Assembly: GCA_028704945.1 (NCBI GenBank)
Contig: JAQWEL010000007.1
Location: 1 to 59,217 of the forward strand
Length of the DNA: 59,217 nucleotides
Direction: 5' to 3'
DNA from: Patescibacteria group bacterium
GTDB taxonomy: Bacteria; Patescibacteriota; Patescibacteriia; Patescibacteriales; Patescibacteriaceae
Part shown: positions 50,005 to 56,327 of the stretch, piece by piece
How positions within the stretch are numbered: position 1 is the stretch's first letter
How the letters are laid out: each line of letters starts with the position of its first letter
Position numbers and translations under genes: made by a program
The notes under the pieces: generated by a model
The model's database searches: none
Told to the model about the DNA's origin: nothing
Seen by the model: the letters and a program-made list of their open reading frames with translations, nothing else

Positions 50005-50049
50005 GCCGTCTTAGCTTCCGCCAGAGGCGGACAGGCAGTCGTAGAGCAC
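50005..50049 (+). pseudogene. Broken 5' copy of tRNA-Thr with palindromic insert
   Basis: The first 12 tRNA bases (GCCGTCTTAGCT) and the later GTAGAGCAC are present. The D-loop bases CAGTTG of the intact gene are replaced by 24 bases (50017-50040) that begin with a TCCGCC-AGA-GGCGGA hairpin. The duplicated part extends upstream: 22 bases at 49995-50016 recur exactly at 50050-50071. The copy cannot make a tRNA. Confidence 0.85.
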
Positions 50050-50059
50050 AATATAATTT

Positions 50060-50135
50060 GCCGTCTTAGCTCAGTTGGTAGAGCACCACCATGGTAAGGT
50101 GGGGGTCTCGGGTTCAAGTCCCGAAGACGGCTCCA
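50060..50135 (+). tRNA. tRNA-Thr(GGT)
   Basis: Cloverleaf of 76 bases: acceptor GCCGTCT/AGACGGC, D-stem GCTC/GAGC, anticodon stem CCACC/GGTGG with loop ATGGTAA (anticodon GGT), T-arm TCGGG-TTCAAGT-CCCGA, discriminator T and encoded CCA (50133-50135). It reads ACC and ACT codons. An intrinsic terminator follows. Confidence 0.95.
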
Positions 50136-55838: not shown

Positions 55839-56000
55839 GCTCGGGGACGTGGATTTCCGCCTCAATCGCTCGCCGTCGCTCACTCTTTCGTTGTCGCGGT
55901 TGGCGTTCAAAGCTTTCCTAAAGCTTTGCCCGACACTCGCTACGCTTTGGTCTGCTGACCTTCAGCTAAGCTCGTTTCCAACCTGTTCGAATCCACACCG
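55839..56000 (-). pseudogene. tRNA-Gln 3'-end relic with GC-rich insert
   Basis: The 17 bases at 55839-55855 (GCTCGGGGACGTGGATT) equal the 3' end of tRNA-Gln at 56055-56071. Then about 125 bases of GC-rich sequence without ORF follow (starting TCCGCCTC), with purine-rich GAGCGA-like units on the minus strand. The segment 55985-55996 (GTTCGAATCCAC) is an inverted copy of the tRNA T-arm (56065-56076). This looks like a second tRNA gene or a duplicated end destroyed by insertion. Confidence 0.6.
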
Positions 56001-56005
56001 AAAAT

Positions 56006-56054
56006 TAGTATAATAAAACAAGCCATGAAATACATGGCTTGTTTTATTATACTA
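56006..56054 (-). terminator. 22-bp perfect hairpin, terminator of tRNA-Gln
   Basis: Arms 56006-56027 and 56033-56054 (start TAGTATAATAAAACAAG) with loop AAATA, directly adjoining the tRNA 3' end. The stem is exceptionally long for a terminator, and AT-rich ends provide T-runs in both directions. Confidence 0.75.
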
Positions 56055-56126: not shown

Positions 56127-56182
56127 ATAAATAATTTTAAACCCATTGTCTCCACCTCTTCGGTGGGTCGCCGATGAGGCGA
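56127..56182 (-). other. Hairpin-rich spacer between broken and intact tRNA-Gln
   Basis: On the minus strand it holds the hairpins TCGCC-TCATC-GGCGA and CCACC-GAAGA-GGTGG in immediate succession, then an AT-rich stretch up to the intact tRNA. No gene. These would lie in the precursor RNA of tRNA-Gln. Confidence 0.7.
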
Positions 56183-56277
56183 CTGCCGTTAGACGACCTG
56201 CCCGCAGTGTTACAGCGTTGCAGGCGGGCCCGCCTGCATAAGCTGTGCGCTTAGCACTGCGGGCAGGTCCCCGAATA
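56183..56277 (-). pseudogene. Broken 5' copy of tRNA-Gln split by a 71-bp palindrome
   Basis: Bases 56183-56196 plus 56268-56277 together equal the 5' end of the intact tRNA-Gln (minus strand TATTCGGGGA joined to TCGTCTAACGGCAG). They are split exactly between CGGGGA and TCGTC by an insert at 56197-56267. The copy lies between the promoter and the intact tRNA, so it would be transcribed as part of the precursor. Confidence 0.88.
56197..56267. repeat. 71-bp GC-rich nested palindromic insert
   Basis: Outer arms CCTGCCCGCAGTG (56197-56209) and CACTGCGGGCAGG (56255-56267) pair perfectly over 13 bp. The centre has a perfect 16-base palindrome CAGGCGGGCCCGCCTG (56221-56236), flanked by ACAGC/GCTGT. 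It is far richer in GC than its surroundings. There is no ORF and no target-site duplication. Confidence 0.85.
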
Positions 56278-56298: not shown

Positions 56299-56327
56299 AT
56301 CCTACCTAAAATATCACAAATTGTCAA
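56299..56327 (-). promoter_or_regulatory. Strong promoter of the tRNA-Gln locus
   Basis: On the minus strand TTGACA (56322-56327), 17 bases, TAGGAT (56299-56304). Transcription would start about 15 bases before the broken copy and run through it into the intact tRNA. Confidence 0.75.

Follow-up and report, generated by a model that had tools for sequence, protein, structure and literature searches.

Broken tRNA-Gln copies around an intact gene in a Patescibacteria genome: a probable relic of GIY-YIG cassettes that invade tRNA genes

Mobile endonuclease open reading frames (mORFs) occur in the genes of fungal mitochondria, in atp6 of Allomyces and in atp6, atp9, cox2 and nad3 of Glomus, where a duplicated and sometimes foreign gene end beside the endonuclease restores the essential gene while the native end is displaced; the enzyme in Glomus atp9 is of the GIY-YIG type (PMC3630166). 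In bacteria of the Candidate Phyla Radiation (CPR), GIY-YIG insertions that are not intron-like lie in rRNA genes, mostly at the tops or bases of stem-loops (PMC11270868). A principle similar to the one proposed here is known, then, for protein genes with mORFs (PMC3630166). This report concerns the tRNA-Gln(UUG) locus in a stretch of 59,217 nucleotides from a Patescibacteria group bacterium (assembly GCA_028704945.1, contig JAQWEL010000007.1, positions 1 to 59,217), hereafter the window. The locus is probably a relic without an open reading frame (ORF), or a non-autonomous form, of a family of tRNA-invading GIY-YIG cassettes in Patescibacteria that bring their own replacement tRNA. No description of tRNA cassettes of such kind was found in the open-access literature.

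The features of the locus are as follows.

56299-56327, minus strand: sigma-70-like promoter TTGACA-17-TAGGAT, 5' of the broken copy, recognized by consensus match only
56268-56277, minus strand: outer broken copy, tRNA-Gln positions 1-7 plus three upstream bases in common, an exact repeat
56197-56267, no strand assigned: 71-bp insert E1, two head-to-head palindromes resembling repetitive extragenic palindromic (REP) sequences
56183-56196, minus strand: outer broken copy, tRNA-Gln positions 8-21, an exact 14-nt repeat
56168-56182, minus strand: hairpin 1 (TCGCCTCATCGGCGA), inside the copied D-loop
56152-56167, minus strand: hairpin 2 (CCCACCGAAGAGGTGG)
56127-56151, minus strand: decayed tRNA remnant (GACAATGGGTTT) and AT-rich spacer, from comparison with loci L111 and L002
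56055-56126, minus strand: intact tRNA-Gln, anticodon UUG, the inner copy (ARAGORN; Rfam RF00005, 60.4 bits)
56006-56054, minus strand: 22-bp perfect hairpin, terminator-like, directly 3' of tRNA-Gln
55847-55998, minus strand: family A structured RNA at the T-loop place of the outer 3' copy (covariance model R1, 149 bits, E 1e-31; covariation)
55839-55855, minus strand: outer broken copy, last 17 nt of tRNA-Gln from T-loop to 3' end, an exact repeat

Along the minus strand, the promoter (56327-56299) is followed by TATTCGGGGA, the 71-bp insert (56267-56197), TCGTCTAACGGCAG and the two hairpins (56182-56152), and then by a 25-nt AT-rich stretch and the intact tRNA-Gln(UUG) at 56126-56055. The original prediction, made from the letters of this DNA, described 24 tRNA-Gln bases repeated upstream with a 71-bp insert exactly between CGGGGA and TCGTC, perfect 13-bp outer arms, an absence of target duplication, and the best promoter 5' of the broken copy. 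These descriptions are accurate: both parts of the repeat are exact, the outer arms of E1 are perfect over 13 bp, no target-site duplication surrounds the insert, and the promoter reads TTGACA-17-TAGGAT at 56327-56299. The longest perfect palindrome measures 20 bases (TGCAGGCGGGCCCGCCTGCA), not the 16 first given. Additional to that description are the D-loop hairpins at 56152-56182, the 3'-end copy at 55839-55855, and a 5' copy at the window's tRNA-Thr gene. Past the tRNA and its hairpin, 199 bp on, lies the 3'-end copy, which is followed by an encoded CCA and separated from the intact gene by a structured RNA of about 150 nt. With a 5' copy on one side and a 3' copy on the other, the intact tRNA-Gln is therefore enclosed by pieces of a second, broken tRNA-Gln.

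Several parts of the locus recur elsewhere. E1 belongs to the same family as palindromes within GIY-YIG cassettes of relatives, and a single palindrome half (CCGCCTGCAACGCTGTAGCACTGCGGGCAGG in genome G081) is found in further genomes. Hairpin 1 occurs 5' of tRNA-Gln(CUG) in the same genome, where the D-loop hairpins are the same as at the window locus, and also in G050 right before a GIY-YIG ORF; the stem of hairpin 2 varies among loci with its pairing preserved. The leader of tRNA-Gln(UUG) folds much more strongly than shuffled sequences (z -6.0). In relatives the nuclease ORF occupies the place of the remnant and spacer at 56127-56151. The window locus holds neither a GIY-YIG ORF nor a recognizable remnant of one, the 25-nt spacer leaving no room, and no direct empty site for it was found because none of the relatives' tRNA-Gln loci is syntenic with it.

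For each of the 49 tRNA genes in the genome (984 kb, 97.6% complete), the flanks were read for partial self-copies, defined as 12 nt or more of exact identity with the gene's own 5' part no more than 340 bp upstream or with its own 3' part downstream. Such copies accompany 17 of the 49 genes, ten upstream and ten downstream, with both kinds at only three of the 17. In twenty control sets, in which the genes were paired with flanks belonging to other isotypes, the count was 0-1 of 49 (about 0.05), which excludes a chance origin. By reading, a palindrome or hairpin interrupts all ten 5' copies, mostly in the D-loop or at the junction of acceptor stem and D-arm. The palindrome TCCGCC-N-GGCGGA is found at twelve distinct places in the genome, eight of which adjoin tRNA genes. 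Several outer copies are clearly decayed, and the loop inserts are unrelated to each other. At tRNA-Pro(CGG) the outer acceptor stem is unlike the inner one and retains its pairing. At tRNA-Lys(UUU) a 5' copy is followed by TCCGCCAGCTGGCGGA, a GIY-YIG ORF and the intact tRNA.

Tandem arrangements were also seen. At L007/L040 (G000:C8:168066-168717), two 99-bp units in tandem come after tRNA-Met(CAU). A tRNA-Met 3' part, whose anticodon arm contains a hairpin, forms the end of each; a GIY-YIG ORF comes next, and one more unit of this kind separates it from tRNA-Phe. At L272 and L276 (G014:C28) and L263 (G052:C40), a tRNA-Glu 5' piece with its palindrome is repeated in tandem at 113-bp spacing with no ORF; an ORF-free unit can therefore multiply.

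In relatives the corresponding layout contains a nuclease gene. In G052 (Ca. Falkowbacteria) the 5' tRNA-Gln copy is split by an E1-like palindrome (CCCGCCTGCAGCGC..GCGGGCAGG) and is followed by an 83-aa GIY-YIG ORF and an intact tRNA-Gln. G033, from a different species of the same genus, is without this insert of about 311 bp, and the flanks are 96.8% and 88.8% identical, so that the two form an empty and filled pair. In G050 the D-loop hairpins of the window locus stand at tRNA-Gln(CUG) before a GIY-YIG reading frame, apparently frameshifted, and then an intact tRNA-Gln. Further cassettes occur at genes for tRNA-Ser, Ala, Met, Leu, Tyr, Asn, Lys and Thr, the ORF being placed in some of them on the 3' side. 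Two tRNA-Gln genes, L082 (G056) and L078 (G067), are intact and flanked by inverted repeats; each sits within another scaffold resembling tRNA-Gln, in its T-loop or its anticodon loop, and the outer arms are kept.

For breadth, one genome per species was scanned with a 3-protein alignment as query; it returned 80 GIY-YIG relatives, a sample biased by that query to one GIY-YIG subfamily. A same-strand tRNA gene begins 1-120 bp downstream of the GIY-YIG ORF in 21 of the 80. Going by record titles, these tRNA-linked loci make up 18 of 30 in Patescibacteria, 3 of 15 in unclassified metagenome-assembled genomes, and 0 of 35 in other phyla. All 21 share one layout: a 5' tRNA fragment, a CCCGCC..GGCGGG palindrome, a few tRNA bases, an ORF of about 80 aa, and the intact tRNA. 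A regular expression finds the palindrome motif at 20 of the 21, as against 1 of the 59 other GIY-YIG loci; the remaining one, L179, is one change off. The entry point ranges from about tRNA position 4 to 21, and for this reason the palindrome seems to have been inserted and not to belong to a fixed junction. The tRNA-linked proteins are bare GIY-YIG domains that score well above the cut-off of PF01541; the residues Y, Y, R, H and E are invariant in 12 of them, and the nearest PDB entries are UPF0213 proteins. On a protein tree (84 columns, weakly resolved) the tRNA-linked label changes 3 times, compared with 11.5 when shuffled. A fixed target isotype for each nuclease clade was considered and rejected, isotypes clustering only weakly on the tree. 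In three genomes (L128, L134, L141) a GIY-YIG ORF lies between a 3' end resembling that of transfer-messenger RNA (tmRNA) and tRNA-Leu(UAA); no broken tRNA copy was found at these loci, and the tmRNA is perhaps the target.

Both window tRNA genes have a same-strand 5' copy with a palindrome upstream (56127-56277; 50005-50059). The second is tRNA-Thr(GGU).

50005-50059, plus strand: broken 5' tRNA-Thr copy, positions 1-12 and then GTAGAGCAC, with palindrome TCCGCCAGAGGCGGA at 50017-50031
50060-50135, plus strand: tRNA-Thr(GGU), 74 nt identical to the inner tRNA of a GIY-YIG cassette in G044, a genome of another family

The cassette in G044 bears on the origin of the inner tRNA. A split tRNA-Thr(GGU) of the type GCCGAGA..TCTCGGC encloses the ORF together with a tRNA-Thr that is intact and has another sequence. 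The outer tRNA matches the intact resident gene of G032, from the same family, at 20/20 and 25/25 compared bases. The inner one is identical over 74/74 positions to tRNA-Thr of the window genome, of a different family, with at most 91% identity to other genomes. The outer gene being of resident type and the inner one foreign, the resident tRNA-Thr has, on this comparison of sequences, been broken and the foreign tRNA enclosed in it has taken over. Outer and inner tRNAs are also unlike at L172 (Leu) and L173 (Tyr), which suggests foreign replacement there too. The earlier proposal that the tRNA survived through duplication or restoration of its 5' part is supported, in that part of the tRNA was duplicated or replaced.

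In the explanation we favor, a full cassette consists of a palindrome-interrupted 5' tRNA fragment, a GIY-YIG ORF of about 80 aa and an intact tRNA, sometimes with the matching 3' fragment on the opposite side. Its nuclease would cut the resident tRNA gene, and repair from the cassette through tRNA homology alone would place the cassette inside that gene. Of the resident tRNA the broken outer pieces would be left, its function passing to the tRNA of the cassette or to one that is regenerated. The same order could alternatively arise by a single crossover between a circle carrying the split 5' piece with the ORF and the resident 5' end. The window locus would formerly have carried such an ORF or have spread as a form lacking it. 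The palindrome is best read as an accessory that interrupts an already redundant tRNA copy; it may stop the outer pieces from acting as tRNA, from being cut, or from being recombined away.

Several observations weigh against this explanation. The window locus has no ORF, and its membership therefore rests on the common palindrome family, the hairpins and the identical layout. Within its genome an ORF was found, in the flanks read, at just one (tRNA-Lys) of ten 5' copies, so that spread without the ORF, by palindrome or duplication alone, is possible. Foreign replacement is shown at one locus only, because at most loci, the window locus included, inner and outer sequences are the same where comparable. 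Two points fit poorly with simple homing: the inner tRNA, being intact, would be expected to be a target itself and would somehow have to escape cutting, and the tRNA isotype switches across well-supported sister pairs of nucleases (Ala/Met, Asn/Leu, Tyr/Ser), which plain homing does not predict.

The strongest competitor, though an unlikely one, puts the palindrome first: slippage or unequal exchange would yield neutral partial tRNA duplications, REP-like palindromes would hop into them, and GIY-YIG ORFs would be secondary settlers. The original prediction was of a mobile palindrome that enters tRNA genes, and part of that prediction stands. A search for the arms, as it proposed, returned four loci in the genome, all within broken 5' tRNA copies, and the repeated family is present in related genomes as well. 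Most broken copies of the genome do lack an ORF, ORF-free tandem units exist (such as the 113-bp units at tRNA-Glu in G014), and palindromes of the family are dispersed through ordinary intergenic DNA of relatives as well as in tRNA copies; the idea of one palindrome with one home was rejected on this last ground. The part that fares worse is the palindrome as driver, since in relatives the duplication accompanies a GIY-YIG ORF between broken and intact tRNA and the inner tRNA in G044 is foreign, which palindromes leave unexplained. Secondary settling predicts neither the palindrome at 21/21 tRNA-linked GIY-YIG ORFs versus 1/59 others nor the clustering of the tRNA-linked proteins on the tree. 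A transposase of the Y1 type, or REP-associated tyrosine transposase (RAYT), was rejected as mover, PF01797 having 0 matches in the genome.

The 3' elements matter for two further alternatives. Family A has 62 copies in 21 of 61 genomes by covariance model, and 24 of 30 fetched loci lie 49-63 nt 3' of a same-strand tRNA gene. Its first strand complements the T-arm of the tRNA that it accompanies, and its end stands at the T-loop. Changes on both sides are seen at 38 of 45 pairs, with 220 cells against 69.5 when shuffled and 27-37 when slid, counts that lean toward the model to which the alignment was fitted. No Rfam family matches family A above its gathering score, the window matching only tRNA, and nothing except tRNA and tmRNA was recognized among known RNA families at the 3' element. 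Family B, a second 3' type with a similar ending, is found at tRNA-Val(CAC) and tRNA-Leu(UAG); in G009 its 3' end comes after a GIY-YIG ORF. We take families A and B as putative 3' counterparts.

Other 3' arrangements were observed. At L100 (G000:C7:30276-30421, minus strand) a family A RNA and a terminator-like hairpin follow a degenerate tRNA 3' end (GTTTGAATCCAACGTGGGGAGC) with no tRNA gene, the element having apparently outlasted its tRNA. Family D elements (L080, L074, L127) end in a GGGGCTT..GCCCC-type hairpin immediately before a tRNA copy that begins at the first T-loop base. Three loci 3' of tRNA-Gln (L002, L066, L076) share across three genomes a conserved flank, ACACATTTTT..GTAGACCGA.., followed by a long hairpin and tRNA-like GTTCGAATCCGAGT; the flank is also present behind the 3' copy at tRNA-Asn (L011).

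It is improbable that the outer pieces form a functional RNA, a split tRNA-like scaffold with D- and T-loop inserts that folds round the inner tRNA and directs how that tRNA is processed or regulated. The nested layouts of G056 and G067, the pairing kept at tRNA-Pro(CGG) despite a changed acceptor stem, and the paired changes in family A are in keeping with such a role, but 5' and 3' copies are mostly single, the loop inserts are unrelated, and several outer copies have decayed. Less probable still are self-splicing introns in tRNA loops that bring a spare 3' exon. The 3' elements restart at a constant point of the T-loop and often encode CCA, family A opens with the complement of its tRNA's T-arm, and one family B-type element carries a GIY-YIG ORF; however, the element comes after an intact tRNA and a terminator-like hairpin, and cmscan at a permissive threshold matched no group I, group II or other Rfam intron model at eight loci. 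An assembly artefact or a single local rearrangement is scarcely credible, for although these are metagenome-type contigs whose palindromes and direct repeats assemble badly, the copies affect 17 of 49 tRNA genes, the layout recurs at different tRNA genes across many independently assembled genomes, and G033 and G052 supply the empty and filled pair.

More tentatively, the tRNA-invading cassettes may amount to a selfish home-and-rescue system, in which tiny GIY-YIG nucleases spread among Patescibacteria by cutting essential single-copy tRNA genes, the cassette tRNA rescues the host, tRNA genes are swapped between families, and the palindromes and family A are scars or trans-mobilized parts. 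If so, a third of the tRNA genes in a minimal genome would be scarred by repeated invaders of the translation machinery that ship a spare part, and there would be a mechanism for horizontal replacement of essential tRNA genes. The system would also account for the many partial tRNAs of these genomes and would be a natural counterpart to engineered cut-and-rescue drives. The idea can be tested directly through the empty and filled pair and the foreign tRNA-Thr, and family A is in addition a new structured RNA family linked to tRNA 3' ends.

Rickettsia palindromic elements are known to insert in frame into protein genes. They resemble the palindromes described here in size and in entering genes; the parallel drawn in the original prediction is nevertheless weak, since these palindromes lie in redundant tRNA copies and none of the four copies is in frame in a protein gene. 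REP sequences and the REPIN elements, which are dispersed in genomes, are likewise short, G+C-rich palindromes; in E1 two REP-like ones are joined head to head. There, the palindromes go with a RAYT; here, they accompany GIY-YIG ORFs at tRNA genes, no Y1 transposase was found in the window genome, and dispersal is seen in relatives, with all four E1-type loci of the window genome at tRNA copies. Integrative elements whose attachment sites lie in tRNA 3' ends also duplicate the tRNA 3' end from the T-loop and leave the gene intact, but the elements here, at 25-200 bp, are too small for an integrase gene, affect many tRNAs of one genome, and have matching 5'-end versions. As regards freestanding homing endonucleases, the catalytic residues are kept and empty and filled alleles occur in G033 and G052. 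The CPR rRNA insertions share the bacterial radiation and the nuclease fold; the main text describing them makes no mention of tRNA (PMC11270868). The mORFs are alike in placing a homing-type endonuclease gene inside an essential gene with a duplicate that restores function, and differ in occupying protein genes of mitochondria with long LAGLIDADG or GIY-YIG ORFs. The tRNA cassettes, by comparison, sit at bacterial tRNA genes, encode GIY-YIG-only proteins of about 80 aa, supply a whole replacement tRNA, and carry a palindrome in the broken copy.
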